Origin: Gracilaria domingensis
Taxonomy: Eukaryota; Rhodophyta; Florideophyceae; Gracilariales; Gracilariaceae
Assembly: GCA_022539475.1 (NCBI GenBank)
Contig: VCMS01000021.1
Span: 310,001-374,000 of the forward strand
Direction of reading: 5' to 3'
Length of the DNA: 64,000 bases
This document shows, one piece after another, positions 21,570 through 43,562 of this stretch (within the stretch, counting starts at the first letter, position 1; the number at the start of each line of letters is the position of its first letter). Made by a program: the position numbers and the translations under genes. Under the pieces are notes generated by a model. It was not told the origin of the DNA and did no database searches. It saw only the letters and a list, made by a program, of their open reading frames with translations.

Positions 21570-22297
21570 TGTGAAGATGCAGCGCAGAAGGGCGTGTGGA
21601 GAAGCATTGAAGAGGAGCGTCCGTTACGCAAAGAAAGCAGATTTTTACTAGAAGCAGCAGGAAGCCCTCAGTATCAAGCAATTAGGGCGGACTCAACGCT
21701 GAATACGACGCACACCATTCAGGGTAATACGAGTCAACGGCACGTCTCCAGTTCCTACGGATTCGGCGGCGCGAATTAGCTCCTGTAGCGCGGCGCAGAT
21801 CCTGAAAACGGCGTCGCGGAAGCCAGCAATATAGCCTGTGCGGTAATCGTACGTGACGTTGAAGAGAATTTCGTGAATCTCGTCCACGATGGAGGCCTCC
21901 TCTGCCTCTACATCGAGGACTGAGCGGTACGGGGTGGCATGGGAGGTGGCAGGATAAACGATAGGTGCAAGGGTGGCTGCAGCGACTCGGTGGGATGTCT
22001 GCAAGGTGACGAAGACAGTCGGATGGCGTGATGCAGGTATATGTGCAGCACCACTCAGCAGTTGACAGAGTGGTGGCCACGTGGCAATTTACTGGGTGCA
22101 CCTGAGACATTAATCCACCAATGCATTGGGAAGGAACTGACAATTAATTAGGGAAATTGATTAATTTTCAACAAGAAATTGTTGGGAAGGAATTAATGTC
22201 TTGTTGACAAACCATTACGAACAAAACAGCTGAGGACATGCCGTGACATGTCCCATGGAAAGGAATTATTACTTGTCAACAAGGAGATAACCTTACA
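21570..22297 (+). repeat. Gypsy-1 3' LTR, interrupted by the next LTR
   Basis: It starts TGTGAAGATGCAGCGC and matches 13540-14269 at about 99%. It stops after CCTTACA(T), and the gypsy-2-type LTR begins at 22299, so only the first 60% of the LTR is present. Confidence 0.75.
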
Positions 22298-23146: not shown

Positions 23147-23150
23147 AAAC

Positions 23151-23165
23151 TGTCTCCCGACTAGA
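23151..23165 (+). other. Gypsy-2 primer-binding site candidate
   Basis: TGTCTCCCGACTAGA lies four bases after the 5' LTR. It resembles the TGGTCTCCCGACTTAG of gypsy-3, so the same tRNA family probably primes both. Confidence 0.45.
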
Positions 23166-23279
23166 AATCGCTTAATTGGCCAACGTTCGTTGAGTTGTCG
23201 TTTGTTTGACCCCAGATAGCTGAATATCCTTCACGTTCTCTCTGTCCTTTCGGAATTGTTGGTTGCCCATTGCCGACTG

Positions 23280-23435
23280 NNNNNNNNNNNNNNNNNNNNN
23301 NNNNNNNNNNNNNNNNNNNNNNNNNNNNNNNNNNNNNNNNNNNNNNNNNNNNNNNNNNNNNNNNNNNNNNNNNNNNNNNNNNNNNNNNNNNNNNNNNNNN
23401 NNNNNNNNNNNNNNNNNNNNNNNNNNNNNNNNNNN
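23280..23435. other. Assembly gap (156 N)
   Basis: This is a run of undetermined bases just inside the 5' LTR of gypsy-2. Frames crossing it are meaningless. It is the most likely place for a scaffold join between two different copies of the element. Confidence 0.95.
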
Positions 23436-23879
23436 GGCCACCGTTCCGATAACGGGACCCACCACTCGTGGGCCAACTGAACCGCACCTTTGCGGCGATC
23501 CGCCGCAGCGGTTGACGTTATCGTCGTCGCGTGTTCGACGAGTATTACCCTCCGTGAATTAGAGCTCAGGTCGCATCCTGCAGAACTCCCAGATGGGCCT
23601 CATCCTGGATATTACAAAAACGCGCAACGGCTCGCGATGAGCCGGTGTCCGGGACGTTTCGAGCACGTCGCCGGTTTCGTCTGATGTCAACCAGAATGGA
23701 AACACCGACAGGTGTCCGCTGTGTCTGCACAAGCAGGCGCCGCACGCCTGACCGCCTGGCCTACCCGTACTGGAGCGCGAGCAAATCATCGATATCTGAT
23801 CTGTTCGCCGGAGCCCCAGTTTCCTGAGGTTCTCAAGCACTCGCCTGTTCCCGCACGTCCCGCAAAGGAAGAAGGTCAA

Positions 23880-25312
23880 GTTTGAGGCTCGACTCATCAT
23901 ACATGCACTACTCTCCTTCATTCTTCTCTGATGAGGAGGGCCCACAAACAGGGTCGTCTAAAACAGCACTCTTCGACAGCGCTGCAAGACGCTCTCGCCT
24001 ACGTGAATCCGTTCGCGGGCTACTAAGCCACTTTCTCGTGTTGCACGAGGCCGTACGAAAGACGAGACACCTCGAGGAAGGAGTTGAAGCCGACAAACTT
24101 CTACTGTACTCGGAACAGCTAATCATCTACCGATCATTTATCGCTTGATGACACGACTCTACATGAGGACCCCACGTTGACTGCAAAAATGCGAAATTAT
24201 CTCCGACAAATGGAGCTCACGCTAAAGCCCCACAAGTTCTCTGGGAAACCATTCTTGTCTTGGATTTTCTTAGCCCGCTGTAGCGAAGCCGATGATACCT
24301 TCGGCAATGATGTGAGCACAGCTACATTCGCGCTGCCGTACTTTTGACGGTGTAGCGAAGATCATCAATCGGCGTTCCGTGCGTCGATCCTCGCCCCCTC
24401 GAAGGGGAGTTACGGCTGTCCGCGAAGCGTTACAATATCCTCCGCCGTTCTACGCGACCAGGCAATGCCGCATACAGTGCATATACTCGCGCTCTGCCAG
24501 ACACGAAGCAGGAGCCAAGAGTCGGAACCGTCTACCTCGACCCCCTCTAGGCTTTCCACAGCATGTCCACGGCAACGTGTTCTCCGCAGCTGAGCGGTGT
24601 ACGATGTTTGTTGATGACTGGACCGATCAATTCGGACGTTGGTAGCCCATTATCGGGAGAACAAAACGCCGGATTACCTATCTGGAACTCGTTCAATTTG
24701 CCCAAGCGGAGGGAGATGCAGCTCGAGCACGCACTGGTATCAAGGCGCGCACGCGCCGACTCTTCATGTAGAAGGCCGAGACTCCTCACTGCCTCACTCG
24801 CGAGGTTCTGTTCAAGGGGGTTATGATAACCTACACCTGTTACAGGACGATGGTTCAATGCCGAGTTCGGAATTGCTGTCGACGACGGAGCAGTCTACAG
24901 TGGACGGAGACCCGCTCTGTACGCCGGACGTCAAGTCCCGGCATTGCCCGTGCCGCACTCTGGCGGATATCGAAGCCAACGCCCTGGATGGAGGGACCCG
25001 TATCCTCCTCGACAGGAGCGCCGGCCGCCCAACGCAGATCTTCTTCGTCACCTTATTTGCCATACCTGTTACAGACCAGGGCACATCGCCCCGAATTGCG
25101 TAATGCCCATACGGGATATGGCGAGGATAGTGCCTCAGTATGAGTCGTTGACGCCCGCCGAGCGGGAACGTGTTCCCGACAAATCGTACCTTCGTGCGAA
25201 GGCGGAGACTCAGCCTGGGAACCAGGAAACGGTGCCATCGAATGGTGGAACTGTAGCCGCCCCTGCGGAATCGCAACCTCCGCAGATTGGCGGCGACGCT
25301 CAGAAAAACTGA
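23880..25312 (+). pseudogene. Gypsy-2 gag region
   Basis: Helical, charged gag-like segments are spread over this region. A zinc knuckle of the CX2CX4HX4C type (CHTCYRPGHIAPNC) sits near 25057-25100. The same knuckle style is found in gypsy-3 (CHSCYRHGHIDSEC). The upstream capsid part appears to carry several breaks. Confidence 0.6.
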
Positions 25313-25427
25313 GCAAGGGAGCCTCCAGCAATAGAGAGGCGCCCCAGCGACGGGGTTTAGTGCGCCTGAGGCTGAGAAGCCTCGCTCCCCGGTCACAATC
25401 CTTTCGAGGAAACTGGCCACTACAGAC

Positions 25428-28400
25428 GTGGACTCTGAGCACCTTGGTGTCTTGCGTCGCCCGTGGATACGGTCTAAGAACAGCCGGTTCCCGGATAGAG
25501 TCCTGGTCATAGCGAAACGTAACTACAAAGTTTACGCCGACCTGGGTGTTTCCGACCAGTACATGGTTCGGCAGTTGTCCGTGCTCGATACAGGAGCTGG
25601 GCCAAATTTCTTGGTTGAATCGATGATTCCGCCGCACTTGCGGTCTCGCGTTCGTGCGGCGCCGCAGATTGACATAGCGGATGCGAACAATCGGCCACTT
25701 TCGACTGTGGGAGTAATAGACCTGCTCGTCAGGCTTGGCCGCTACGTGGCGAAGCTCGATTTCTTGGTTTGCAAGCAACTCGCTGCGCCAGTTATCCTCG
25801 GCTGCGACTTCTGTGACCGCTTCGTCGATGCAATTCGACCGCGGAAGCGAACCATCGAAATGGAAGATGGGACTACTGTACCGATCGTTCGGCGTCCCCT
25901 GCGCCGGGCTCTGAAGAAGCAAGTCCCTTTGCCTGCGGCACAGAAGCCTACAGCCGATGAACGGAAGTCTACAAAGCTCCGAGTAGCTCGGCCCATTTCC
26001 ATCCCGCCTGAATCACAGGTCTGGGTTACTGTGACCTCCCCACAATGTGGCTTACAAACGGTACAACCGTTGCCTGCGTTACAGGAGAAGCATCAGCTTG
26101 CCCTCGCTAATGGGATTGTTTTCGTCGAACCCGAGAAGCCTTTTCAGGTGCTGGTTGCGAACTTCAGCCGTTTTCCTCAACGGTTGGTTAGGAGCCAAGT
26201 TATTGGTTCGTTGCTTCCGCACCCTGCGGCTATAGTGCCTACTCAGGTTTCTATTGCCGAGGTTCTCGGAATCCTCGAAGCTGAGGAGGGGGAGGCGGAA
26301 CGGAACAATTCCGAACGGAACAATTCCGAAACGACTGGACCGAACAGTTCGTCGGAAGATGCTACGCCGACTTCGTCGGATGCGAATAACCGCAGCCTGT
26401 CGAAGGAAGCGTTGCCGACCTCGTCGGGCAGTAATGATACAGACCTGAGTGCTGCTGACACGAAGGATAAGGCAGTACAGGAACTGGAGTCTCTGGATCT
26501 TGAACATGTCCCAGAGACTCACCGCGATAAATTGCGGCACATGCTTGAGGAGTTCACGCCCATGTGGGATGGCACTCTGGGTAAGATTGATATTACCGAA
26601 CATCGGATTGATTTGCTACCGAATACTCGGCCCATTTCACAGCACCCTTACAGGGCAGGACCGACGGCTCGGCAGGAGGAGAAAGCTCAAGTTGAGAAGA
26701 TGCTCCGCGCTGGAGTTATCGAGCCGGCTCAGTCACCTTGGGCATCGCCGGTAGTGCTCGCGCCCAAAGCTGATGGGTCTTGGCGATTTTGCATCGATTA
26801 CCGCAAGCTAAACGCGGCTACGGTCAAGGATGTGTATCCTATCCCACGAATGGATGAATGCATCGATTCATTGGGCGACGCGAAAGTGTTCACAACCCTA
26901 GACGCGAATTGGGGCTATTGGCAAGTTCCCGTGAGGGCTGAGGATCGTGACAAGACAGCCTTCGTTTGTCATGAAGGATTGTACCGATTCAATCGGATGC
27001 CCTTTGGGTTAACGAACGCGCCAGCCACCTTTCAACGAGCTGTGGATATTTTGCTAGCCCGCTTTAAGTGGAAGACTTGCCTGGTATACCTGGATGACAT
27101 CATTGTCTACTCCAGCAACCTGGATGAGCACTTGACCCACGTACGGGATGTGATGCGAGTCCTACGTGATGCAGGCATTACGCTCAAGCTCAAGAAGTGT
27201 GAGTTCTTTACCGAAACCGTCAGGTATCTCGGCCATGTTATCCGTCCGGGACGGCTTTCGATTGACGAAGTACGCGTGAAATCCCTCAAAGAGGCTAAGC
27301 ATCCGAGGACGCAGACGGAACTCCGATCTTTTCTCGGCTTGTGCAATGTGTATCGCCGCTTCATTCCGAACCTCGCGGATATCGCTGCACCTCTGAACGA
27401 GCTTCTTCGCAAAGGACAGCCAGTCGATCTGGAAGAATTCGACGACCGCAAGGCCGCGGCTTTCTCGTCGCTCGTGGACGCGGTGACATCGCCACCTGTT
27501 TTATCCCTGCCTAGGGCTGGTTTGCCATATGCAGTAGATACGGATGCGAGCGACTACCAAGTCGGCTGTGCCCTATTCCAGACCACCAATGATGGCGAGC
27601 GATTGCCAATTGGGTATTGGTCAAGGAGCCTCAACGTTCACGAGAGGAATTACTCGGTATCCGAGAAGGAGTGCTTGGCGGTTGTCTGGGCGTTACAGAC
27701 ACTGCGGCCCTATCTTATGGGGACCCGCTTCATTGTTCATACCGATCATTCGGCATTACGCTGGCTACTCTCTATAGCAGAGCCATCTGGCCGCTTGATG
27801 CGGTGGAGACTTCGCTTGTCGGAATTCGACTTCGAAATCCGTTACAAGAAAGGACTCCTGAACACTCAGGCTGATGCACTGTCCCGCTTAGAAACAGCGG
27901 CTGAAGCTGCGCCAGTCGATGATCTGGAGATACCGTGCTTCCTCGTGGAAGACGGCTCGAGCGATGCCGATGAAGAATCGGAAGGATGGGACATCTACGA
28001 TGCTGTTTTAGCCGTGTCAGACACGCAACCCGAACCGGGCTCTTTCGTACCGATCAAGCCGGAGGAACTCATCCGGGAGCAGCACACCGACCGTTTTTGT
28101 ACGGAGATTCGTAGTCGTCTAAACGGTGGAGCACAGTTGCCTTTCGTCGAGAACGACCAAGGATTTCTAATCCGAACTGTCGGAAACAGGCCACAGATTG
28201 TGGTTCCGCACTCACTTCAGTCACGAGTACTGCATTTGTCGCACTATGCGAAGTTGTCAGCCCACCCTGGTGGCAGGAAGTTGTACTACACCTTACGGAA
28301 GGACTTTTACTGGCCAGCAATGGCTTTTGACGCGTATGCCAGTGTTCGTGGATGTTCTGACTGCGCGAAGAACCGCGTCAAGCTGCATAAGTATTCCAAG

Positions 28401-29792
28401 AAGTTGGCACTATTCCCTGCTAGGGCTCCACTGGAGTTTGTGGCGATCGATCTACTCGGCGAGTTTATTCGCACCCGCCGGGGAAACCGGTTTTTGCTTG
28501 TTATCACCGACCGCTTTTCTAAGCTGGTACGGACTGTGCCTTTAAAGAAGGTTACTGCTAGTGCGGTCGCCCAAGCTTTCGTTACTCACTGGGTCTTTGT
28601 CTACGGACCGCCGATTGACTTACTATCGGATAATGGACCGCAGTTCACGGCTAAGTTCTTTCAGGACGTATGCCGCATCTTGCGGATCCAAAACTGGTTT
28701 ACGACAACATATCATCCCCAGAGTAATGGGCAGGTTGAGCGTTTTAACCGCACGATGCTCAACGCATTGCGGACGTTTGTTGCCGAGCATCCGTCGGAAT
28801 GGGATCAGTACACCGATGCGGTGACTTATGCCTACAATACGCAGGTTCATCGCACGACTCGAATCTCGCCGTTCGAGCTGGTGCTATCACGCGTCCCACC
28901 TTCGGTGGCTATCGAGCCACAGCCAACTTTGGATAAGTTTCCGTCGCCCCGTCTACACAGGGACGCCTGGAAGGACTGGCTTAAGAACATTACCCCTACA
29001 GTTGGGCAGCATATCGCTAAGGCCCAGGCCGCATACAAGCGGAATTTCGATGCTAGAGTGCGTAAGAATGCCCCTCAGATCAGGGAAGGTAGCTTTGCCT
29101 TCGTACGGAAGGAGTACTACAACCCCGAAAAGGAGAAGCGCCACAAGCTTTCTCCTATCGCGGACGGCCCGTTCCGGGTTATTGCTGTCACCGACACAAC
29201 GGTTGTCCTTGATATCAAGGGAGAGCACGAGCGTTTGTCGCTAAATCGCATAACGCCTGCGCCAAAGCCTGTTTCGCAGGATTCGCTACCGTCATCGTCG
29301 GCCCCTACCGCACCCACTGTGGAAACAGCCGTCGAAACGGAAACAGGCGCCGCGGCGGGTACCCGCACTCAACCGTCTGTGTTGCCGCATCCGGATCGCG
29401 GACTTGCCCATTTGCCTGCTAAGCCGGAATCTGACCGGTCGGTCTCCAATGCCGCACATGTGCACACGCGGATAAGGGCCCCTATGGGGATACTCGCCGC
29501 CACCCCCGACACTCCCACTGAGGAGGGGGAGGAGGCAGGTCGTTCTTTTTCGTTGTCGCCGTCGTCGACGGAGTCGCCTTCGCAGGCCTCTGTATCGCAC
29601 GCAAGTCGTGATGAAGGCGCGTCAACGCGCGACACACAGCCGGAGAGCCGGAAAGAAGAGAACGACGCGCGGCTACCGCGGAAGCCTCAAGAAGAGGAAG
29701 ATCCCTCTCGCTCACCACCGCCGTCGCGAACGGAGTTACGTTTGCAGGCCCAAGAACGGGAACACAGTACCGATGTGGTACGTGATTTGTAG
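25428..29792 (+). CDS. Gypsy-2 pol: protease, RT, RNase H, integrase
   Basis: A frame of about 1,450 codons holds the full enzyme set. Protease: SVLDTGAGPNFLVES (about 25580-25630) and VILGCDFCD. Reverse transcriptase: RFCIDYRKLNAAT, MPFGLTNAPATFQR and YLDDIIVYS (about 26660-27260). RNase H: DTDASDYQVGCAL, SEKECLAVVWALQ and HTDHSALRWL (about 27530-27890). Integrase: zinc finger (HPGGRKLYY ... CSDCAKN), core residues in FVAIDLLGEF, LLSDNGPQF and NGQVERFNR, and a GPY/F module (PIADGPFRVI). After it the frame runs into a low-complexity tail rich in Ser, Pro, Glu and Arg. This part of the element looks whole. Confidence 0.9.
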   Translation: MDSEHLGVLRRPWIRSKNSRFPDRVLVIAKRNYKVYADLGVSDQYMVRQLSVLDTGAGPNFLVESMIPPHLRSRVRAAPQIDIADANNRPLSTVGVIDLLVRLGRYVAKLDFLVCKQLAAPVILGCDFCDRFVDAIRPRKRTIEMEDGTTVPIVRRPLRRALKKQVPLPAAQKPTADERKSTKLRVARPISIPPESQVWVTVTSPQCGLQTVQPLPALQEKHQLALANGIVFVEPEKPFQVLVANFSRFPQRLVRSQVIGSLLPHPAAIVPTQVSIAEVLGILEAEEGEAERNNSERNNSETTGPNSSSEDATPTSSDANNRSLSKEALPTSSGSNDTDLSAADTKDKAVQELESLDLEHVPETHRDKLRHMLEEFTPMWDGTLGKIDITEHRIDLLPNTRPISQHPYRAGPTARQEEKAQVEKMLRAGVIEPAQSPWASPVVLAPKADGSWRFCIDYRKLNAATVKDVYPIPRMDECIDSLGDAKVFTTLDANWGYWQVPVRAEDRDKTAFVCHEGLYRFNRMPFGLTNAPATFQRAVDILLARFKWKTCLVYLDDIIVYSSNLDEHLTHVRDVMRVLRDAGITLKLKKCEFFTETVRYLGHVIRPGRLSIDEVRVKSLKEAKHPRTQTELRSFLGLCNVYRRFIPNLADIAAPLNELLRKGQPVDLEEFDDRKAAAFSSLVDAVTSPPVLSLPRAGLPYAVDTDASDYQVGCALFQTTNDGERLPIGYWSRSLNVHERNYSVSEKECLAVVWALQTLRPYLMGTRFIVHTDHSALRWLLSIAEPSGRLMRWRLRLSEFDFEIRYKKGLLNTQADALSRLETAAEAAPVDDLEIPCFLVEDGSSDADEESEGWDIYDAVLAVSDTQPEPGSFVPIKPEELIREQHTDRFCTEIRSRLNGGAQLPFVENDQGFLIRTVGNRPQIVVPHSLQSRVLHLSHYAKLSAHPGGRKLYYTLRKDFYWPAMAFDAYASVRGCSDCAKNRVKLHKYSKKLALFPARAPLEFVAIDLLGEFIRTRRGNRFLLVITDRFSKLVRTVPLKKVTASAVAQAFVTHWVFVYGPPIDLLSDNGPQFTAKFFQDVCRILRIQNWFTTTYHPQSNGQVERFNRTMLNALRTFVAEHPSEWDQYTDAVTYAYNTQVHRTTRISPFELVLSRVPPSVAIEPQPTLDKFPSPRLHRDAWKDWLKNITPTVGQHIAKAQAAYKRNFDARVRKNAPQIREGSFAFVRKEYYNPEKEKRHKLSPIADGPFRVIAVTDTTVVLDIKGEHERLSLNRITPAPKPVSQDSLPSSSAPTAPTVETAVETETGAAAGTRTQPSVLPHPDRGLAHLPAKPESDRSVSNAAHVHTRIRAPMGILAATPDTPTEEGEEAGRSFSLSPSSTESPSQASVSHASRDEGASTRDTQPESRKEENDARLPRKPQEEEDPSRSPPPSRTELRLQAQEREHSTDVVRDL

Positions 29793-29799
29793 CCGGAAA

Positions 29800-31330
29800 G
29801 CCGGAGGGATCGCACAGTTTCGCGGAGGCCTTCTGAGAAGGACGCCACCTCGGTGACGATTGCAGCCGGAAGACCGGAAGAGAAGGACGCGCCGTTACCA
29901 CGGAAGGCTGAGGTGGAAGGCACCACTATGGTGAATCGCAAAGCCGGAAGTCCGGAGAAAGAAGAGTTAGTTCGAAAAAACCGTGCTGTTACGGCAGACC
30001 CGACTTCGGGAGATTTTGGTGCAGCACCGAGCGCCAAAGCCGTCAAAAATACGGAATCAACCACCAGTGTGGCGAACAGTCAAGCCACAGCAAGTGGGCA
30101 GCACTCAAGCACTGTCGACGCGTGCACGTCGCGCCAAGTGTCGAGCTCCGTGGGAGATCCGCCTCCAACCGAGGATTACAGTGCGCAAGCCGGGCACGCG
30201 CCAGCCACAGACCTGGCGCCGCCTAAAAACGGTCCAAAAAATTCCGAATTTGAATCGGCTCTTGACAGCCATGCAAAGGCGCAGGTGTCGCAAACCGCAG
30301 CGCGCGGCGAACCGCCGCCACGGCACGTGCCAGAACACCACTCGCTGGCTCACCGCTCTGCCGACCGTTCACCGTCGCAACGGGAGATTGTGCCGGAACG
30401 CCGGAAGCTCGCTATTCGAGAAGACCGAAGCACGGTCACAGCCCAGCAGCATGGGGAGAAGAACCACGAATCTGGAAGCATGATGGTCAGGAAAATACCA
30501 TGGTCACGAAGACCAAAGCCTGGCGTACAGGATGTACTGCCGTCAGGACGGAAGCCGATCACGAACGACGATGCCCACGACGGGAGAAGCGACGACTACG
30601 CCTCGAAATAGGATTCTTCAAGCAAGCCGCACACAGAGCGGAGTGTTCTCGATGAGGAATATGTCATTGACCGTCTGGTAAGTCACGGCTACGCCCCTGA
30701 CGGGGAACTACTGTATCGAGTCCGTTGGTACGGCTACGCCTCTTCAGAGGATACGCACGAGCCCATTGAGCACTTGCCTCGCTCGAAGGTCTTGCAGTAC
30801 CACCGTCGCACACGGACACCGATACCGGCTATGCTGGACAAGGCCCAAGGGGGTTGACCACCCACGTTCCTATTGAGCGCAGCCGTCTCGAACGGAATAT
30901 GCCGCCTCATGCGGACAGTATTGCATTACGCAAGAATATGCCGCGTCAAGCGGGTGCAACTAAGTTAACTGAGATCACTCAGCCGCCTCAGGCGGACCAG
31001 GCCGCTCTAAGGGGACAGCTTTTTGCTGAACAAACATGCCGCGAAATGCGGAAGCCACTTACAGTGGAGAAGAAGATAAAGAAGAAAGAAGCCTAAGAAG
31101 AAGGAGAAGAAGCCAGGACACTGGAAGGAAGACTAAGAAGTTTTATCGCTACAGCCGCTTGTGCGGAAAAGTTACCCCTCTCTTGTGGGCCATTCGCAAC
31201 AGCCTCAAACGAGGTATTGCCCACTGAGAAGGGGGAGAGCAAGACGAAGAGTTTGAGCCAAGCCAGCACGGCTGGAGAAGTTTACCTCTAACTATTGAGT
31301 CGCCCCTCATCATCGGGGTCTATTGCGGAC
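29800..31330 (+). repeat. Array of micro-hairpins in the gypsy-2 tail
   Basis: Short perfect inverted repeats follow each other at roughly 40-50 bp spacing. Examples are CCGC-CTCAT-GCGG (30902-30914), CCGC-GTCAA-GCGG (30941-30953), CCGCC-TCA-GGCGG (30983-30995), CCGC-GAAAT-GCGG (31039-31051), CCACT-TAC-AGTGG (31055-31067), CCGC-TTGT-GCGG (31155-31166), CCTC-AAAC-GAGG (31203-31214) and CCAGC-ACG-GCTGG (31263-31275). Stem sequences vary while pairing is kept. The function is unknown. Confidence 0.65.
30643..30810 (+). CDS. Chromodomain of gypsy-2
   Basis: The translation carries the chromodomain signature: an EYVIDRLVSHG strand, LYRVRWYGYASSEDTHEP (the typical 'YLVKWKGY...TWEP' block) and the C-terminal helix IEHLPRSKVLQYH. 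In chromoviruses this domain is the last part of integrase and binds modified histones. Here it lies downstream of a long low-complexity tail, about 850 bp after the main pol frame. Confidence 0.8.
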
Positions 31331-31364
31331 TACCGTAGCCCGTAGGGGATCGCGAGCCGGGGAA

Positions 31365-33164
31365 TTACGCGCCGGACGGCCCAGCACCTGGGGTGCCCCC
31401 ACTACCGGGAGCCCCGGAGAAGCGCTGTGCCGCTATTGCTTGCAACTCCGACTCGTCGGTCACCGTATCGGGAACGGCCACTCCCACGTCTCGAAGGAAG
31501 TCGCGAATGACCGCCGCTCGCGGAGTGAGAGAAGAACTGCCGCCCACGGCGGATGCTACATCCTGAGCCCACGGGCCGGTCGGAGCGGGAGCCCCTACAG
31601 CGGGTGGGTCAACGATCACGACTTCGTCGTCATCTCCCGTAGCGTCGGGCTCCGAGGCAACCCCCACTGGGTTCCCCTCATCCATGGGACTTCCTCCCTC
31701 TGCAGGGTCATCACCGTCATCGTCGACGTATACGAACCCACGCGGGTGCCCTTCCGGGATATATCGCTCCTCTCGGCGGCGACCAGCCGCCTCAGCGGGG
31801 CCAACTACCTCCCAAATCCACGGGTCAAAGTATACGAAGTCGCCGGCGTTGACGTTCCGTCCGGGAGAACGGTCCGACTGCCGACGGACTCCGTCGGAAA
31901 CCTGACTAGCAGGCACCTCATTCCAGTCAATCTGGTCAATGACGTCCACCAACGCGGTGGCTTCGCGCGCATTGCGGACCGAGCCGAGCACTTCGGAGAG
32001 ATCCAACGCTCGGATCGCTTGCCGGATGAGTTCCGGGATGAACCAAACTCGGTACGAATCATATGCCTCGATGAGGAGGAAAGCCGCAACGCGGACGGTC
32101 CATTCTGTTGCCAGGATGCTCCACAGGCCGCGAGGCGGATCGTTCATGAAGTACGAGCCTATGTAAGTTAGGCAGGGCGGTAGCTCTACGTGACACCCTC
32201 GTGGGACTTCGACCGCAGGCCAGAATGACGGCAGCGGCAGGTATCGCCCAGTATGGGAGTGACGCGCAATGCGTTCCACCTCCGTACACTGGTACGGCAC
32301 CAGTACCCCGAAGCGGGAACGCCATTTTCTCTCGAATCGGAGGCCTTCATGAAATTGAGACCGTCCAGGACGGCGAAGGAACCGGAACTCGGCGCGAAGG
32401 ATCGGCCGCGCCCACAGGATCAACTCCTGCTGCGGCTGAACGGTATCCGAATATCGGTCAATTTCGTCCAACGCGTTGGCTAGGTGGTCGCCGTAGCCGA
32501 CCTCGCCGAAAGTTCGGTAACGTGCCACATCGTACTGGTACTGTGCCGGCACCGGATGTTCGTTCGGAGCTCGGAAGTGTCGCGCGTACCCAATGCGGGC
32601 CATCTCATTGCGAGCGAATTGTCTCGTCTCGTTTCGACCTACAAACAGGCAGCTCGGTATAACCGCAACGCGGGCGATCCAGTCCCATGAACGGGTAACG
32701 TCAGTAGGAAGCCCACCAGGGAGTTGACCGTCGACAGCGTACGAGTCGACGAGCTCTGTATCCCGAACGGCTTCGGCGTCAAACCAGGGGGCCTGGGCAA
32801 AAAGGAAACTGTGCCGGTGCGGATCCCGGATGCGTAAGGCGCCTGCGGTAGGCCATCCACCCAGCGTAGCTGGCATCTCGGCGTTGAACCAATCCCACAC
32901 GGGCGCGGGACCAGCCTGAGCTGGAGCGTGATCTTGTCCGGAAGAACCCGGCTGGGAGGCAGCCACCGACTGCGGGAGAGGTACAGACCGGAACGGCGGG
33001 TTCGACACTTGCATGCGTGCCGTCGAGGACGGAGGGCCGTTCGGTGCGTTGGACATCGCGGAAGGGCTCGAGATGACGAGGTTCGCTACTGACACCGGAG
33101 GTGTTGGTGGCTCCGAACAGTTCTCGGCAGACCCGTCTTGGGAGACTTCCTTATATCCCTCCAT
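31365..33164 (-). CDS. Long antisense ORF of gypsy-2, 599 aa, unknown function
   Basis: An ATG frame of 599 codons runs opposite to pol, between the chromodomain and the 3' LTR. Composition is protein-like. A Ser/Pro/Gln-rich N-terminus (residues 1-90) precedes a globular middle (about 90-430) with many Trp, Tyr and Phe. That middle includes amphipathic stretches such as SILATEWTVRVAAFLLIEAY and RQAIRALDLSEVLGSV. The acidic, Gly/Ala/Pro-rich C-terminus includes DDDEVVIVD. I recognise no enzyme motif and no transmembrane or signal segment. Antisense ORFs between pol and the 3' LTR are known in some plant gypsy elements, usually of unknown function. No competing sense ORF of similar length is present. 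Confidence 0.55.
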   Translation of the reverse strand: MEGYKEVSQDGSAENCSEPPTPPVSVANLVISSPSAMSNAPNGPPSSTARMQVSNPPFRSVPLPQSVAASQPGSSGQDHAPAQAGPAPVWDWFNAEMPATLGGWPTAGALRIRDPHRHSFLFAQAPWFDAEAVRDTELVDSYAVDGQLPGGLPTDVTRSWDWIARVAVIPSCLFVGRNETRQFARNEMARIGYARHFRAPNEHPVPAQYQYDVARYRTFGEVGYGDHLANALDEIDRYSDTVQPQQELILWARPILRAEFRFLRRPGRSQFHEGLRFERKWRSRFGVLVPYQCTEVERIARHSHTGRYLPLPSFWPAVEVPRGCHVELPPCLTYIGSYFMNDPPRGLWSILATEWTVRVAAFLLIEAYDSYRVWFIPELIRQAIRALDLSEVLGSVRNAREATALVDVIDQIDWNEVPASQVSDGVRRQSDRSPGRNVNAGDFVYFDPWIWEVVGPAEAAGRRREERYIPEGHPRGFVYVDDDGDDPAEGGSPMDEGNPVGVASEPDATGDDDEVVIVDPPAVGAPAPTGPWAQDVASAVGGSSSLTPRAAVIRDFLRDVGVAVPDTVTDESELQAIAAQRFSGAPGSGGTPGAGPSGA

Positions 33165-33204
33165 CGCGAGGCGTATCGAGCCGACGGAGTCGGTGTCTCA
33201 GCCT

Positions 33205-33217
33205 GAGAAGGGGGAGA
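33205..33217 (+). other. Gypsy-2 polypurine tract
   Basis: GAGAAGGGGGAGA ends exactly at the 3' LTR start, the expected site of plus-strand priming. Confidence 0.75.
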
Positions 33218-34079
33218 TGTAGAGCAAAACGCCCTTTGTGGGGGTGCACCGAGGTGCTTTTCATAGTTTGTTGATCCGTTACCGGCTTCGACACCTCAGG
33301 TTATGAGAGGCTACTGGGGTAGTGCCCCTATTTTGGGGTATGCCTAGGAAGGGTAGTATTTCTGCACACGTGTGCCAAGTTGGCCCGATCGCGCGGGCCC
33401 CGTGGCAAGCATGCCACGGGGGCACACCTGTAGTGTATTGGCCGGCAGCGCCGGATAGTTAGATATTTTAATTGATATTTTCAAGTGCCGTATATAAGTG
33501 GCGGCACTTGCCGCCACTGTACGGGAAGTAAACCTCAACGAGGCCTTTGGCTCTGATCTTCTTGCCGCTTGCGCACGGTCACCAGCCCCATCCTGGGGAA
33601 TACCGCCGCAATTCCGGGCTGATCAACCAACCTCCGTCCCTGAGGAGTACTAATCCGTCGTCACGGCACTTTTCTTATCTATTTTATTGTTTTCATTTCC
33701 GTCTTACGGCTTTCGCTACTCTGCCCTACATTGTAGGTTTGTTTTATTTGTCTCGGGAGTTCTCCCGCTTATCGCGAGTCAGTGCTCCGCAGTGCGGCTC
33801 GTTTGTTGATCTTTTGTCGTCCCATACCGTTGGGCTGGATACCCCCACTCGCTGTGGCTCGCCGGAACCATTCGGATACCTACGCCGATTCCACCCCCCC
33901 CCTCTACCTCCGACTGCACGCCCAGATCGGGGTCACCCGGATTTACACCCGGCTCGTGTTGGCCCTATCGGAGGGTTCTGTCACTGCGCCTACCCCTGTA
34001 GGGAGCAGGGTTCGAACACCCCTGTCGGTGCTCTTCCGCGACGCGGCTGTCGTTTTCCCGTCACCGGTTTTGCACCACA
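33218..34079 (+). repeat. Gypsy-2 3' LTR
   Basis: This 862-bp repeat starts TGTAGAGCAAAAC and ends TTTTGCACCACA. The TATATAAG box is at about 33491. Its right edge cuts directly into a pogo-like transposase gene. Confidence 0.8.
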
Positions 34080-35036: not shown

Positions 35037-35592
35037 AATTTGCTGAACAAGGTTGAACCACTCTCAGAAGCGTAGTGGGTGCAATTGATACTAAACGCTG
35101 AGCATGGTGAGGGACGAAGCTTGTTTGGGTGTGTCATTTCTACTTTGTGCTGCCTTTTATGTCGAAAAAGACACCATAAGGACTGGAGATTTTGTTTCTG
35201 TTTTGGATAGTGTTTGAAGATGTCTTCTGGACTTATCTTTGTCTGAAGGAGATTGTGGATTGATTGGGAGATTGTCCAGAGAACGAATAGGACGCACTAC
35301 TGTTTCGGTCCTTTGTGACGTAGGGTATGGAAAGTGTAATTCTTACGTAATCTGGGCAAGTCCCAGGATAGCAAGAGCAAAAGTAGGGGAGTTTAGAATG
35401 TACTAGAGATGAATCGCAAACGACTTGGAATATATGTGTTCTTCTTGAAGAAGAATGATATCAAGAAAGTGTTGAGACTACAAACGAAAGACCCTCAAAA
35501 CCAGGAAAGTTCATATTTCTGCTTATTTTTTTGTGAAAACCGCACGGGTTTGGACGTGAGGTACCTGTCCAAGTTTGAGGGACACCCACAGT
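35037..35592. other. Flank of the pogo transposase gene
   Basis: This should hold the transposon's 5' untranslated part and one terminal inverted repeat, which I could not identify without its partner. A 61-codon plus-strand frame (35409-35594) has no motif. Confidence 0.4.
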
Positions 35593-35753
35593 AAAATATC
35601 TAACTATCCGGCGCTGCCGGCCAACATCCTACACGTGTGAAACCGTTACGGGCTTGCCACGGCGCACCCGGCATAGGGCCAACTCAGCACAGGTGTGCGA
35701 AAACACTACCCTTCCTAATCATAACCCAAAATGGAGCCATCACTACAGTAATT
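35593..35753 (-). repeat. Gypsy-2-type LTR, inner piece (minus strand)
   Basis: The reverse complement matches gypsy-2 LTR positions around 22395-22553 (TAACTATCCGGCGCTGCCGG and the ACACGTGT region). It continues at 43470 on the far side of gypsy-3. The LTR is incomplete at 35593. By eye it differs clearly from the gypsy-2 LTR, so it is an older copy. Confidence 0.7.
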
Positions 35754-36603
35754 GTGGTGCAAACCCCGAGAACGGGAGAAAGACACGAAAGGTGTTCGGA
35801 GCCTTCCCCTCAATAGGGTAGCAACAGCAATAGAGCCCCTCACGGGTAGGTGCACTAGCCGGGCGTAAACCGGGACCTACCGTCACGATGTACGGGTGAG
35901 GGTATGAGATGGCCGAGAAGTCGGATGGAGATACACGTGAGTGTGTGTAATCCTCAGATGAGGTCTAATAATCCACGGAAGTGGCGGAGACAACGACTAC
36001 GTGTCGGAGGTTCACAAACCACGAAAGGGTGGGCGACAAGCCCAAAAAGGGGAAACGGGAACCCAAGTGAATGGGGAAAACCAAAGAGGAAACCCGGCGA
36101 CGCGGCGAACGAGAGTAGGGCCACGAGAGACACGAGCGAACAAGACGAAGCCCTATACAGGGGTGAGTATCCACGACAGTGTGTAATAATGAACGGTAAA
36201 TAACAACGACGGTGTCGGCGATGCTCCTGGTGAACAGGGTGGTTAAACTAACCGTGCACGACGCGGCCAACCCTCGAAGAGGTGTGGGAACACGCGAAGG
36301 CGGTGCAGCTTAGAGCCAAGAACTAAGGTTCAACCCTGGTTGGGGAGCTTTACTTGGCGGCGAGGGCCGAAGGCCGAGCCACTATATAGTGTAGTAATCC
36401 CCCTAAAATATGTCCAAAACTATCAAAAGAAATATCTAAATTACCAGCAATGCTGTGCCACCCGTCCCTTGCAACCGTGCTACACGTGTCTGACAAGCCA
36501 GCAATGCTGTGCCAACCTCAGCACTGCCTTCTACCTTCCCTGCGCAGCAGGCCCAAGAGTTCCTCGCAAAGCGAGCATATACCGCAAAATGCGTTGCACT
36601 ACA
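35754..36603 (-). repeat. Gypsy-3 3' LTR (left side)
   Basis: On the plus strand it runs from TGTGGTGCAAAC to GTTGCACTACA. It is near-identical to the right copy and dense in micro-hairpins (for example CCTCAGATGAGG and GGCCGAAGGCC). A TATATAG-type box is read on the minus strand near 36385. Confidence 0.85.
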
Positions 36604-36616
36604 TATCCCCCTCCTT
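36604..36616 (-). other. Gypsy-3 polypurine tract
   Basis: The minus strand reads AAGGAGGGGGATA just before the 3' LTR start. This fixes the element's orientation. Confidence 0.65.
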
Positions 36617-38772
36617 AGGTGCGAACACCACGTCGCGATGACGGTTGAAGCACCGGACAAGCCAACAAAGTTGGGTAACATCACCGCAGGAGCGGTATAT
36701 GCGAGCCATCGCCAGTTTTCCAGGTTGCGCTCCGGTTCTCCGAGTCCTTCTTCCTGCTTCCAAGCCTCCTCCGGAGCTGCTATTGCCACCCGATGACGGG
36801 CTTCGAGCCTCCCGACATTGTGGCAGAATTGCTTACAGTACGCCCAGAATGGCGTTCTCCGCGTTTGAACGACGTTCTTGCGTTGAGCGGAACACCACGC
36901 GAACATGCGGCACGATATCCCCAATGGGTGCTCCAAACAACGTCAATGACGGATACTCCTTGTGCGACACGACCAACACAGCCCTAATACGATAGGTGCA
37001 ACAAGCCCTCCATGACCCGGAAACGGGGTTTTCACTTCCTCACCACGTCACTGACGGTTCAAGAAAACCACCCGCAAACATGCGGTCTGACCTCCCAAAC
37101 TGGGTCTCGTATCACGTCAATGACGGTACAGCACACGCGCGAAGCGGCTAGCAAACTCCCAGAACACTGGTGACGAAATGCCATAACCTTCCCGAAAACG
37201 GGGCTTTAAACTCCATACCACGTCGTTGACGGACACTTAAACAAGCATGCAGTACTGCGGTAGGCTCTTGGGCATCGACGCACGCGAAATCGCGGTTCCC
37301 TCTTACCCTTCCAGGGTCTTCCAACCGATAATATCGGGAGTTTGACAAAGTTCCAGAAATCTGGCTAAAAACTGACATGTACAAGCCCGTAAACGGGTCC
37401 GGAGTTCACAGCCCGTCAATGACGGAGTGCCATATCCACCCGCAAGACTGCGGCAGACTCAGTGAGTCAAATACGCACGCTTCGGCGGACTTCTTTCCCT
37501 TTCCAGGGCTTCATGAACCGAGATATCGGGGTTTCCGGTCAATCCCATATTGGGGCGTTTCAATCGTTGCCGCAACGCGGAAAGAAACCATCGGGAGATG
37601 TGATCGCTCTGCGCGCTGAAAGCGTGGAAGCCAACCTCAAGGAGGAAGTATCCCGTTGAAGAAACGGAGCTCATACCGTCGAGATACAGACGTGTTTTCA
37701 ATAAATATAATATTAACGTCAACAACCCAAATCTTCGGCTTCCTCAATCCGTCTTCGACGTGACCAGATCCCAACTGGGAGTGAACATACGCAACACAGC
37801 GCCGGCATGCCGTGCAACGAAACCCAGTGGTGGGAAAGAGACAGCGTCATAGACGAAACGAAAATCCGTCCTTCGGAATATATTAAACCGGTAGTCCGTG
37901 AACTTCTCCAACCCGAAAACGGTGAGTACAGCCTGAAGCAGTGTAGGATCCTTATTAAAGGCAAACAGCAGACGTTGTAGAAAGCCCGTGAAAACGGAGA
38001 TAACCAAACCAGCAAGGCTGAGAACAACAGTAACACCATGAAAATGGGTCATATAACAAATAGAAACTTTCGAACAAGAAGTGTATCCTCCGGTATCAGA
38101 CCGTGTAGAAACGCACGAAAGCCAGTCGGAAAGTGTTCCAAAGCCCGTGTAAACGGTGAAATGAATTACCAACCGCAGTGCGGGAAAGAATGAAGCTCCC
38201 GAGAAATCGGTCGACCAAAAATTATCCTCGACTACGAGAGTGACGAGCATTATGCAAGGCCGTGAAAACCGATGACAATCGTGGTTCTTACGCAATCTGC
38301 GTGACGTTCTAGAATATCCACGGCACAGAGTGGACAGCGAGTGCCGTAAAACGGAGAAAACCCGTTGTTGACGAGAACGAACCCTGGTAAACAGGAAGGG
38401 CAGAAACTCGAAACGGTATTAAACCCGGTAGATACACGTGATATACACGGAAACAGTACCTCCTTCTGAAAGGGAAAAACCATTCTTGTGATCCACAAAG
38501 ATGGAAGTGAACCAGCAAGCTGGATAAAAAACCTTTCAGGGTTATAACTTTGAAAATCGAACATGTGCGGCTCGACACGACACAAGTCGGACTTCAACCG
38601 CAAAATGCGAGTACAAAATTCTTCTCTTCACTTCTGAATATCCATTCCTCTTCTAGAGTCTCTGAATTCCTCTTCTGAGTGTCCATTCCTCTTCTGAGTG
38701 AACTTCTTCATCTTCTCCTCTTCCTGAGGGCAACGTGTCTTCTTTTAAATTTTCTCTACCCAGAGTGCACCT
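36617..38772. repeat. Gypsy-3 non-coding tail packed with micro-hairpins
   Basis: There is no long frame on either strand. Perfect inverted repeats of 4-5 bp stems with short, mostly A-rich loops occur every 15-50 bp. Examples are CGTC-AAT-GACG (36941), CCGCA-AACA-TGCGG (37072), CCCA-AAC-TGGG (37094), CCAG-AACA-CTGG (37159), CCCG-AAAA-CGGG (37191), CGCG-AAAT-CGCG (37283), CCGAT-AAT-ATCGG (37325), CCAG-AAAT-CTGG (37353), CCCGT-AA-ACGGG (37386) and CCGTC-AAT-GACGG (37413). The CGTC-NNN-GACG type recurs at 36941, 37046, 37115, 37221 and 37413. Confidence 0.75.
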
Positions 38773-41700
38773 TCACGACGTAAATGTCGGTACAGTACTC
38801 CACTGGAGGTCGTCGTACGTCCTCGAAGGAGGTTCCTTATGCGTACCCTCCGTCATGACGGGCTCACCAACGTCTCGAACTCGAGAAACTTTCAGTGTTG
38901 ACGGGAGTCCCAAGCAGGGAGGCGGATTGCCTACCACGGCGCGTGCCGATTCACGTGACTCCGGACGACGGTTCGTGGCTGCGGCACTGCCGGTCGACTG
39001 AACTGACGCACTGCGTGATGCAGGGCTCGTGTCACGAGATTCGTGGCGCGCACGGACTCCTGCAACGGCAGTGTGTGTTATCCCTAAATCAGGGTTGTAA
39101 TCCGTTTCTCGAAATAGTGGGGCACCGTCATGACTTGGTGAACCGTCGTGACGTGCGTACGACAACTTCCCCACGGACGGGCCTGGCTCTACTTCCTCCA
39201 AACCCGATCCGGGGTGCTTACTTCTATCTTCATCGAGAGTCTCTTCTTCCTGCTCTGCAGTGTGGTGGATACAGGCATCAGCGGCGACCTTCTTACTTTG
39301 CGCCTGCATACGCAGTGTTGGGCGGTCGTCAGCGACGATATGCAACTGCGTGGCGACCGGAATACTCCGTACAGCAGTATCCCGCGTAACCGTAGCCGTG
39401 CTCTGCCGAGAAATCGGGTGATCAACTTCAACTTCCGGCGTTGCCGAGGGAACATCTCGAACGAGAGTGTACTCCGCGTCCTGCGTCTGAGCGACGATAG
39501 GCGCGGGTTCGTGCGACGATTCCTCAAGCGGGTGAGCATTACCAGTATCCTGGGACATCTTCGAGTCCGTAGATTGCGTTACTTGTCCCTCTGAAGGGTT
39601 GCGATCCGTCTTAGAAGGTTGTGCGTCCTCCGCAGAGTCCTGCGCGTCAGCGGCCAACTTCGGCGCGTTCTTTCCGACTTCAGCACGCTGCAGCAAATGT
39701 TCCTGCCCACTGACAGTGGTGTACTTAGCAATCACGTCCTTGACGGTGTCTTGCGGCACTTCTGCCTCCACTTCTTCTCTCCGTAAATCACGGGATATCT
39801 GCGACGGTAGCAACACCGGTGATTCACTTTCCGCGACAATGCGTGCGTGTCCCTCCCCCTCCTTAGACGGAGCGTCATGGGTAGCTGTAGAAACACCCAA
39901 ATGACGGGGATAAACGCCGCACAGATGCGTGAGAGTAGAAAAGCCGTTCTGGCAAACATCCGAAAGCTTCGGGAGCATTGAGAAACCCAACGATTGGGAA
40001 CGCATACGCATACCCTGCTTTACAGGTTGAATGTCTACTCGTACAGGAACTGTAGTTTCCACCGTAAGAACGGGATCATCAACGACTTCATCGTTCTTAG
40101 AGCAAGCGTTCTCGTCACGAGCATGTGACGATGTCCGCTTGACAGCGTGTTGCTTCTCGTTGAGCCGTTCGCAAGCGCGATTCATAGCACGCTGTACAGC
40201 GGTGGGCATTCCTGTGAGCCATAACTTCCAACATCTTTCATAATCCGTAGAGTACGGTACACTATCCAGCATTGGTTGAGCATCATCTCTCTTTGAAGAG
40301 GACATTGTTTGAGTCTCTGTCGCGCCAGACCGACGGTAGTCGAGGCAAGCGAACCAAGATTCATTCGAAAGCTTGGCAAACACAACCATTGATATGGGCA
40401 AACACTCCGAATCGTTCGGTCTCCCTTTCGAACGTTTCGAAATATCTTCCACCTCCTTAGAGTGTAGTACACCGATCGCATCGGCAGCACATATCTCAGA
40501 AGAGGCAACTGCCATAGGATGAGGTAAAACAGATCCAATAACTTGGTTGTGAGCCAGATACTGGTGCTTACGTCCAAGATTGGAAACCAGCACCGTAAAC
40601 GGTTTGTCCGGTTCAACATGAACTAGAACATCCGCGAATGCGAGACCACGCCTGTTAGACAGTGACGGTACCTGCTGAACAAATCGAACTCCGTGATGAC
40701 GGGAACTGACTCGAACCCAAGCTTGGGATTGTGGCGCTATGCAAAGCGATCCGTGAACACGAAGCTTGTTAGATTCCCGGGAGGCCGGTAGATATTCCTG
40801 TGCCACAGGTAGAAGGACTTTCTTTTTCGACGCACGCTTCAGCGGACGACGCACGATTGGGACAGAAGAACCATCGGCCAAATCCACACGCTTCGACCGG
40901 GGTCGAATGGATTCGACAACTTCGTCGCAAAAGTTACAACCCAAAATGATGGGGGCCGGCAATGACCGACATACAATAAAGTCGAGCTTCAGCACGAACG
41001 GTCCTAAGCGAACGACCATGTCAACCTTACCAACTGTTGACAACAGGGTGTCACTCGCATCAGCGACTTCCGGAAGCACGCAATTGCGGATTCGATCACG
41101 CAATGACTGCGGTAAAAGAGATTCTACGACGAAGTTCGGACCAGCACCTGTATCCAAAACAGTGAGATAACGCACCATAAAATGGGTAGAGTGGCCAATG
41201 TCAGCGAACACTTTGAAGTGTCGCTTTGACATGACCATGACTCGATCCGGGAACCGGTTATGACGAACCCGTTGCCACGGTCGACGCAAAACACCAAAGT
41301 GTTCAGAGTCCACGTCTAAGACGGCCTCTTTCCTTGTGAGGATTTTGACCTGGGAGCGAGGCGAAGAAGCCTCGGGCGTCGGCAACCTCGATATAGAGGA
41401 CGCCTCTCCACATGTGGAGACTCCCTTTACCAGTTTTTCTGGGACTCAACCGCCACGGGCGGAGCCACAGAATCCTGAACCACTAGCAGTGAGGTGCTAG
41501 CAGCATAGTCTATACGCGAAGGATGCGGTTCGACAGCCTGCGGAGCAGTGTTTGACAACGCGAATTGCGGTTGAACAGCCGGAATGCTCCGTGAGAAATC
41601 TGCTATCGAGCGAAGATACGACGTCATCCGGAACGATTCAGCCTCCTCTGAGTGAGAGACTCATAATTATCAGCAACAGAGGACCATTCTCTCAAAGGGA

Positions 41701-42250
41701 GGTGGCATTCCGAGTCTATGTGACCGTGTCTGTAGCACGAATGGCAGATAGTGCCAGATCCTGAGCCATTAAAAGCCTGACGACCTTCACCAAAACTCAC
41801 CGCTTGGCGTGTATAGCTCCGTACAAGACCAACATGTTGGATAACTTCACTCCTATGAGGAGGTCGCAACCCGTGAGAACGGAAAGAATCTGCAGAATGC
41901 AGTCGATCTTCCACGTTGGTGGTGAATAAAGCATCTGTTTCAGACCAGAAATCTCCTGTTAAGGAACGAGCATAACTCCAAAAATCGGAGGAAGAATCTG
42001 AAGACCAACCAGACGAGCTTGAACCAGTTGAACTGTGAGAAGTTTGAGTTAAACCCGATGATTCGGATAGATTCGACTCGGAATCAGAACGACTCTCACA
42101 TACATCCTTCACAGAAGTCCGTCCCAACCTGCATTGCAGGGCTTCGACTTCCTCTGCGAGGGCATCCGACGGTTCACGTAGGACTGAGTTTTGCCTTCTG
42201 GCAGTTCGACCCATGTCGAAACGACTTCCACACGGAGCCAAGAACACCAG
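38773..42250 (-). CDS. Gypsy-3 gag-like and protease-containing coding region
   Basis: At the upstream (right) end lies a gag/nucleocapsid-like part with the zinc knuckle CHSCYRHGHIDSEC (about 41708-41749). Further on is a long frame whose first 300 residues parallel gypsy-2: DVDSEHFGVLRRPW, YLTVLDTGAGPNFVVES (retropepsin core), IILGCNFCDEVVESIRPR and VPIVRRPLKRASKKK. The remainder is a low-complexity acidic/Ser-rich chain. Polymerase and integrase parts are not recognisable. A fossil or non-autonomous coding region. Confidence 0.7.
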
Positions 42251-42595
42251 AAAACTGTAGATTGTGCCTCAAACGAGAGTGTAACACACAAAGGTGGGTA
42301 GAAACGACCGTATCGATGGGAACCACAAACTACGATAGTAGGCGATTCTACCAGAGTAGCTGGTACACAGTTCTAGAGTAGCAACACCGTACCGACGGGA
42401 ATCACACACGACGGAAATAGGGTAAGCAACCAGTTCAGAACTGAGCGAGACCAACAACCCAAACGGGGAAAGACGAAGCCAATCACGACAGTAGTCGGCC
42501 ACGACTTCCACGAGGAAAAGATCTGCGTTCTCCACGACGTCGAGCCGGCAAACCGGAATGTGCACAAAACCAGCTTGCTGGAATCAACACGACTT

Positions 42596-42611
42596 CTAAG
42601 TCGGGAGACCA
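42596..42611 (-). other. Gypsy-3 primer-binding site
   Basis: Two bases after the 5' LTR, the minus strand reads TGGTCTCCCGACTTAG, a TGG-type tRNA 3'-end complement. It is shared in its first ten bases with gypsy-1. Confidence 0.6.
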
Positions 42612-42613
42612 AA

Positions 42614-43464
42614 TGTGGTGCAAACCCCGAGAACGGGAGAAAGACACGAAAGGTGTTCGGAGCCTTCCCCTCAATAGGGTAGCAACAGCAATAGAGCCCC
42701 TCACGGGTAGGTGCACTAGCCGGGCGTAAACCGGGACCTACCGTCACGATGTACGGGTGAGGGTATGAGATGGCCGAGAAGTCGGATGGAGATACACGTG
42801 AGTGTGTGTAATCCTCAGATGAGGTCTAATAATCCACGGAAGTGGCGGAGACAACGACTACGTGTCGGAGGTTCACAAACCACGAAAGGGTGGGCGACAA
42901 GCCCAAAAAGGGGAAACGGGAACCCAAGTGAATGGGGAAAACCAAAGAGGAAACCCGGCGACGCGGCGAACGAGAGTAGGGCCACGAGAGACACGAGCGA
43001 ACAAGACGAAGCCCTATACAGGGGTGAGTATCCACGACAGTGTGTAATAATGAACGGTAAATAACAACGACGGTGTCGGCGATGCTCCTGGTGAACAGGG
43101 TGGTTAAACTAACCGTGCACGACGCGGCCAACCCTCGAAGAGGTGTGGGAACACGCGAAGGCGGTGCAGCTTAGAGCCAAGAACTAAGGTTCAACCCTGG
43201 TTGGGGAGCTTTACTTGGCGGCGAGGGCCGAAGGCCGAGCCACTATATAGTGTAGTAATCCCCCTAAAATATGTCCAAAACTATCAAAAGAAATATCTAA
43301 ATTACCAGCAATGCTGTGCCACCCGTCCCTTGCAACCGTGCTACACGTGTCTGACAAGCCAGCAATGCTGTGCCAACCTCAGCACTGCCTTCTACCTTCC
43401 CTGCGCAGCAGGCCCAAGAGTTCCTCGCAAAGCGAGCATATACCGCAAAATGCGTTGCACTACA
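42614..43464 (-). repeat. Gypsy-3 5' LTR (right side)
   Basis: This 851-bp copy matches 35754-36603 almost base for base, which indicates a recent insertion. Confidence 0.85.
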
Positions 43465-43562
43465 GTAATCTCTCATAGCCTGAGGTGGCGAAGCCGGTAA
43501 CGGATCAACAAACTATGAAAAACACCTCTGTGCATCACCACGATTTTGGCGTTTTGCTTTAC
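43465..43562 (-). repeat. Gypsy-2-type LTR, outer piece (minus strand)
   Basis: The minus strand starts GTAAAGCAAAACGCC and follows the gypsy-2 LTR start (TGTAGAGCAAAACGCC ... TTTTTCATAGTTTGTTGATC) up to the GTAAT target site of gypsy-3. Together with 35593-35753 it forms one LTR split by gypsy-3. Confidence 0.75.

Follow-up and report, generated by a model that had tools for sequence, protein, structure and literature searches.

Uniform four-base-pair hairpins across two related long terminal repeat retroelements of the red alga Gracilaria domingensis

Short hairpins recur along the genomes of several kinds of virus and mobile element, and these systems are the closest comparison for two hairpin-dense long terminal repeat (LTR) retroelements of the Ty3/gypsy type. 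The two elements, here called E2 (22299..34079, plus strand) and E3 (35753..43464, minus strand), lie in a 64,000-nt stretch of Gracilaria domingensis DNA (contig VCMS01000021.1, positions 310,001 to 374,000; hereafter the window, in whose numbering all coordinates are given). Dispersed packaging signals have a loop or bulge sequence in common within a single RNA polarity, and the coat hairpins of MS2 also carry a bulged A. Ordered RNA virus genomes, represented here by RNA phages of the Fiersviridae, resemble E2 and E3 in having a local hairpin excess over coding and non-coding sequence alike. Many degenerate hairpins are likewise distributed along the genomes of MS2, satellite tobacco necrosis virus (STNV) and parechovirus (e.g. 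PMC6281560). The pervasive secondary structure of eukaryotic single-stranded DNA (ssDNA) viruses is similar in that pairing is reported to be conserved at the DNA level and G-T pairs not to be maintained (Muhire et al. 2014, cited in PMC6993869). Template-switch hairpin mutations also consist, in DNA, of arms that are exact reverse complements with Watson-Crick pairs alone (PMC8794818), and mitochondrial double-hairpin elements (DHE) and repetitive hairpin-forming elements (RHE) place many short hairpins across one genome (e.g. PMC2800124).

In this study, we examine the hairpin texture of E2 and E3, the molecule in which it may fold and the processes that could have produced it. To our knowledge, no account of structure in eukaryotic ssDNA viruses presents it as an array built of uniform 4-bp units. 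Template-switch hairpins (PMC8794818) have been described as single events within RNA genes, and not as uniform units that occur by the hundred in one element. The mitochondrial DHE and RHE elements are copies of mobile sequence families, whereas the stems and loops of E2 and E3 are diverse, do not form one sequence family, and include few pairs related by descent. For retroelements with dense hairpins, red-algal or other, the open-access literature yielded nothing comparable, although such a search cannot prove absence. We rated the micro-hairpin array as unlike the known kinds, since ordered RNA genomes, packaging signals and mobile hairpin families do not match it on their defining features. 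An earlier note on this DNA had stated that no described system was like it; literature searches gave no contradiction, but close ideas do exist in the making of hairpins by template switching (PMC8794818) and in the pervasive structure of RNA and ssDNA viruses (PMC6993869).

The hairpin array and its controls

Inverted repeats with a stem of at least 4 bp and a loop of 3-6 nt were scored against dinucleotide shuffles. The starting point was the 3' non-coding tail of E3 (36604..38700, minus strand), where the earlier note had described dense short inverted repeats. The density is real. The three 1-kb segments spanning the tail held 2.5-2.7 times as many inverted repeats as the shuffles (z 6-7.5), and a greedy non-overlapping count gave 64 against 24.5+-4.7 expected, covering 37% of bases rather than 15%. 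The texture had also been noticed in the LTRs and in parts of the coding region, and it proved wider still, taking in both LTRs, the open reading frames (ORFs) and the tail of E3 together with nearly all of E2. Enrichment was 2-3 fold in nearly every kb of the two elements (22.0-34 kb and 36-43.5 kb) and about 1.0-fold across most of the remaining window. The neighbouring gypsy element E1, a copia ORF and the host genes had short inverted repeats at chance levels relative to dinucleotide shuffles.

A refined motif, 5'C NNN-(3-5)-N'N'N'G3', defines the unit more sharply as four Watson-Crick pairs around a loop of 3-5 nt with an outermost 5'C-G3' pair. All of E3 contained 171 such motifs versus 24 in dinucleotide shuffles (7.1-fold, z 31), its tail 51 versus 5.5 (z 20.5), or about one per 41 nt, and E2 193 versus 43 (4.4-fold). 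E1 (32 versus 25) and 13.9 kb of host sequence (40 versus 40) were at chance, so that the comparison with shuffles and host genes that had been proposed for this DNA separates E2 and E3 from their surroundings. A synonymous shuffle of codons, with protein and codon usage kept, lowered the count from 74 motifs to 19.8 in the E2 pol ORF (z 12.8) and from 54 to 11 in the E3 ORF.

Pairs of complementary 4-mers peaked at loops of 3-6 nt, with 14 per kb compared to about 3 per kb at larger distances; the excess was limited to loops of roughly 3 to 8 nt and reached background by about 9-10. Direct and mirror repeats had no short-distance peak in the same profile. Because the complementary excess is short-range only, it reflects local pairing and not word usage. 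Stems fell at all codon positions about equally in the E2 pol and E3 ORFs, which rules out an explanation by codon phase. It is true that CC and GG words are common in the stems, as would be expected if chance, base composition or amplified simple words mimicked hairpins. However, the dinucleotide, synonymous-codon and distance controls do not reproduce the array, the stems are diverse, and the distance profile, in which no effect is left beyond loops of about 8-10 nt, refutes this account, which we consider to have almost no likelihood.

The stem has a consistent internal organization. At the outermost position of E3, 5'C-G3' occurred 192 times against 22 expected, and the reverse G-C 36 times against 23. 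At the second position C-G and G-C predominate, and the two inner pairs can be any Watson-Crick pair, with near-equal excess. Stem sequences thus differ while complementarity is kept, just as the earlier note had observed. This freedom of the inner pairs also rules out sequence-specific dimer sites in duplex DNA. Stems had been put at 4-5 bp, of which 4 bp is correct and 5 bp is not for E3, where the unit is sharp and a fifth pair is avoided (25 versus 46.5 expected from the flanking bases; 0 of 5000 shuffles were as low). E2, on the other hand, prefers a fifth C-G pair (47 versus 20). In place of a fifth pair, about one-third of E3 hairpins show a single bulged base and beyond it a further C-G pair. 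These bulges take the form C-C-NNN..-G-(T/A)-G in 26 cases, with T in 19 and A in 7, and the mirror form C-(A/T)-C-NNN..-G-G in 28, with A in 19 and T in 9, so that the bulge bases are complementary.

Neighbouring hairpins in E3 are seldom separated by linkers shorter than 7 nt (4 versus 28 expected), a minimum-linker rule that is absent in E2. Distances between nearest-neighbour hairpins in E3 are concentrated at 20-22 nt. Helical or long-range phasing was considered and is not claimed, as longer-range periodicity was not significant after gap permutation. The loops have no consensus. Their reported A-richness holds for E3 on the plus strand only; since the sense strand of E3 is the minus strand, these loops are T-rich in sense, and E2 loops are unbiased. 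Protection of cytosines in complementary DNA (cDNA) was another candidate, but it was dropped, because E3 loops are C-poor on the minus cDNA strand whereas other unpaired sequence is not.

RNA or DNA as the folding molecule

Five RNA phages provided a direct comparison. Their 4-bp hairpins were enriched 1.3-2.3 fold and the refined motif at most 2.7-fold (1.3-2.7x), compared to 4.4-fold in E2 and 7.1-fold in E3. The phages also differ in kind, with a broad loop peak, a slight tolerance of G-U and base pairs that are alike at all stem positions. In the ssDNA phages phiX174 and M13 the motif excess was not significant.

According to published models, G-U pairs are maintained in RNA structures, and G-T pairs hardly at all in ssDNA viruses (PMC6993869). 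In single-mismatch stems of the array, sense-strand G-U in excess of A-C came to -1.6+-1.9% of excess pairs, which means that G-U is not tolerated; identical code returned +6.6+-3.8% for the five RNA phages. RNA folding energy was barely under that of shuffles on either strand (mean z -0.4 per 120 nt, versus -0.2 in host sequence). E2 and E3 therefore depart from genome-scale ordered RNA structure (GORS), in that their folding energy is not clearly below shuffles and G-U is not tolerated on one strand. The predicted formation of E3 micro-hairpins was 0.55-0.57 with DNA parameters on both strands and 0.34-0.40 with RNA parameters, an order that holds at 12 C. The lack of wobble, the DNA folding parameters and the mirror symmetry of the bulges together point to DNA, or else to selection, or some process, that is sensitive to both strands.

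These data bear directly on the idea that selection acts in the sense RNA, either through dispersed packaging sites for Gag or nucleocapsid or through a generally ordered RNA genome. Such selection would suit an array that runs the length of the element and reaches its highest density in E3, a non-autonomous element that has to compete for the particles of others, and unpaired E3 loops do avoid G in the sense strand. RNA phages, which use dispersed packaging hairpins (PMC6281560), also have a hairpin excess, of up to 2.7-fold. However, G-U pairs are absent, the folding energy is hardly under that of shuffles, and formation is predicted to be weaker as RNA. In addition, the two bulge orientations are equally frequent with complementary bases, and no loop consensus exists, so that the shared sequence expected of packaging signals is missing. 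Of the two targets of selection that the earlier note had named, RNA or DNA structure, DNA remains, and sense RNA alone is disfavoured; we judge it unlikely.

A related proposal is that both strands are transcribed and that folding on each resists duplex formation or targeting by small RNAs. This would account for Watson-Crick-only pairing and for orientation symmetry, and E2 does contain a 599-codon antisense open frame. Total predicted RNA pairing is not raised, with 401 pairs per kb in E3 sense versus 415 in shuffles, so accessibility would be little changed, and antisense transcription is here a supposition. We regard this proposal as improbable.

Stem evolution and the origin of the array

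E2 and E3 can be aligned over 957 nt of coding sequence (58.5% identical), in which both are hairpin-dense at mostly different positions. Columns occupied by E3 stems were 74% identical to E2 versus 58% elsewhere (p 4e-4), and loops 52%. At third codon positions, identity within E3 stems was 62% versus 38% (p 0.003). Among the 17 E3 coding hairpins, all three with one change per arm were compensated, where chance would be about 1/12 for each. Diverged internal repeats of E3 tell a similar story: differences fell at 0 of 32 stem sites, 6 of 14 loop sites and 15 of 106 other sites (stems versus the rest, p 0.008). Amplification of a repeat unit was rejected as the cause of the array, there being only seven related internal pairs in E3. 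Motif density was 15-17 per kb in the conserved coding sequence for reverse transcriptase (RT), RNase H (RH) and integrase (IN), versus 20 per kb in variable parts. Hairpins thus turn over and yet are dense in both elements and in conserved coding sequence, which implies that density is held while individual E3 stems are partly conserved.

A copying process that writes palindromes, also raised in the earlier note, could explain part of this pattern. During cDNA synthesis by RT or a DNA polymerase, the nascent strand would briefly copy itself or the other strand before going back to its template, with a short reverse complement left behind, and the hairpins would be footprints of mutation bias. 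Both the creation and the repair of hairpins by template switching have been documented (PMC8794818). Perfect Watson-Crick arms without wobble or strand preference, and inner pairs without a preference for G-C, would be its natural products. Individual hairpins have for the most part been replaced with density kept, only one retroelement lineage in the window has the texture, and clusters of multi-base differences lie beside hairpins between the E2 LTRs. Against these points, copying should yield stems of variable length and not an avoided fifth pair, and it leaves the minimum linker of E3 unexplained. Conserved RT and IN coding sequence should resist multi-base changes, yet its density is nearly equal, and stem conservation at third codon positions is unexpected under mutation bias alone. 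Copying is the main rival reading and appears rather unlikely, if less so than either RNA-based account. Template switching and selection could also act jointly, with switching supplying hairpins and selection retaining the right ones.

The balance leans to selection over drift or template switching because the fifth pair is avoided, short linkers are depleted, stems are conserved, changes are compensated and density is kept across RT, RH and IN. We tentatively propose that this selection acts on the local folding of the lineage's single-stranded DNA intermediates, in coding and non-coding sequence alike, and maintains an orientation-blind array of 4-bp, C-G-based hairpins. In the E2/E3 lineage, which is of the chromovirus type, a constraint over the entire sequence would make it fold into numerous tiny local hairpins, each with four Watson-Crick pairs, C-G at its base and a 3-5 nt loop, spaced at least about 7 nt apart in E3. 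The constraint would fall on ssDNA of both polarities, most plausibly the minus- and plus-strand cDNA that reverse transcription yields inside the particle. A dense set of weak local hairpins might keep the cDNA compact, untangled and shielded, and yet easily melted by RT. The copies compared were those in the window, two families with very few copies, and it is from these that we infer cDNA as the folding molecule and orderly folding or protection as the benefit.

Several observations weigh against selection on cDNA folding. Many of the hairpins are predicted to be formed only part-time, and the lack of a significant excess in phiX174 and M13 indicates that single-stranded DNA as such does not impose hairpins. 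The hairpins of E2, for their part, show no conservation in E3 (identity in stems 0.60 versus 0.59). The comparison of compensatory with one-sided changes, suggested as a possible refutation in the earlier note, was divided, since 5 of the 17 E3 coding hairpins carry one one-sided change beside the three that are compensated; over all pairs, 9 of 25 both-side changes stayed Watson-Crick, with a chance level of about one-third. The two elements also differ in detail, as in the fifth C-G pair favoured by E2 and its lack of a minimum linker. Finally, E3 loops, above all in the tail, are T-rich in sense beyond background, a strand asymmetry that a DNA model does not predict.

The elements, their surroundings and implications

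E3 is a young non-autonomous relative of E2. It has a complete LTR pair with TG..CA ends, 99.88% identical (1 difference in 854 aligned sites), and is hairpin-dense throughout. Its 3' LTR (35753..36603) contains 25 hairpins versus 9 expected, and its 5' LTR lies at 42614..43464; both are on the minus strand, as are all E3 parts that follow. A 5-bp target-site duplication (TSD), GTAAT, flanks the element at 35748..35752 and 43465..43469. The polypurine tract, AAGGAGGGGGA in sense, was read at 36606..36617 and adjoins the hairpin-dense tail, and a putative primer-binding site, TGGTCTCCCGAC, lies 2 nt past the 5' LTR (42600..42611). At its ORF-side end the tail carries a tandem repeat of 3.5 copies of a 19-bp unit (38631-38700). 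The E3 ORF (38773..41385) encodes 870 aa with a protease region homologous to E2; its identity to the E2 pol protein (P0001) is 52% over 303 aa, in the protease part alone, plus short traces. RT, RH and IN are missing from this ORF, by a Pfam search without a match and by comparison with E2; their lack, along with the complete LTR pair and TSD, makes E3 a non-autonomous LTR retrotransposon. The leader and gag-like region (41386..42610) holds 34 hairpins versus 14.6 expected, and a 33-aa stretch of it matches the E2 gag region at 52%.

E2 is an autonomous element with the same hairpin texture. Its LTRs (22299-23146 and 33218-34079) have TG..CA ends (TGTAG..CACCACA). The pol ORF (25428..29792, plus strand) encodes 1454 aa in the order protease, RT, RH and IN, with the Pfam domains RVT_1, RT_RNaseH, Integrase_H2C2 and rve in succession and a protease DTGA motif. 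A chromodomain (30612..30857, plus strand; PF00385, E 1.1e-8) is separated from the pol ORF by stops. The flanks of E2 were compared for a TSD and did not match. An N gap (23280-23434) and the divergence of the LTR ends suggest that this E2 copy is recombinant or was joined in scaffolding. The missing TSD is then a property of this copy and not of the family, and E2 is classed by its genes and LTRs. Between the two LTRs, near-identical elsewhere, differences of several bases cluster in the final ~190 bp (22959-23146 and 33890-34079); these clusters adjoin hairpins whose stems are largely kept. The gag region after the N gap (23435-25000) has stops in all frames, whereas pol is open, and a low hairpin density, with about 11 motifs in 1.5 kb where the rest of E2 has about 8 per 500 bp. 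The antisense frame in the 3' region (31365-33164, minus strand; 599 codons, ATG-initiated, P0003) has no Pfam or NCBIfam match and may be a real gene. Adjoining the 3' LTR is a 348-codon ORF (33990-35036, minus strand) with few hairpins and no Pfam match, by eye a possible DDE-type transposase.

The insertion site of E3 lies within a partial LTR of E2-like type (left part 35592..35747, minus strand, and right part 43470-43562; 79-83% identity to the E2 LTR), so diverged copies of the family exist nearby. Searches of viral contigs with pol, RT-alignment and protease-alignment queries, and of prokaryotic genome contigs and plasmids, returned no useful relatives of E2 or E3. A phage search gave a single weak integrase-like stretch, 34% identical, in an unannotated record. 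Elsewhere in the window, LTR elements lie between eukaryotic host genes for a phosphoserine phosphatase, a CECR5-type HAD hydrolase, a cpn60 chaperonin and a MYND protein, and the host DNA appears intron-poor and LTR-rich. The copia ORF occupies 10062-12326 and E1 13540-22225. A 194-nt direct repeat of 86% identity (7193-7386 and 8364-8557, with 1.2 kb between the copies) lies upstream of the copia ORF.

As far as our literature search could find, selection on cDNA structure would be a layer undescribed for any retroelement, a claim that we advance with the same reserve as the reading itself. If the array is selected, the structure of retroelement DNA intermediates can constrain a whole genome, reverse transcriptase codons included, and one would predict a protein or a step able to recognize the shape of the hairpins. 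If template switching writes it, a polymerase would here have shaped the sequence texture of a genome to an extreme degree. Either reading can be tested by alignment of copies and by probing of cDNA, and the motif provides a simple sequence signature for spotting such elements in other genomes.
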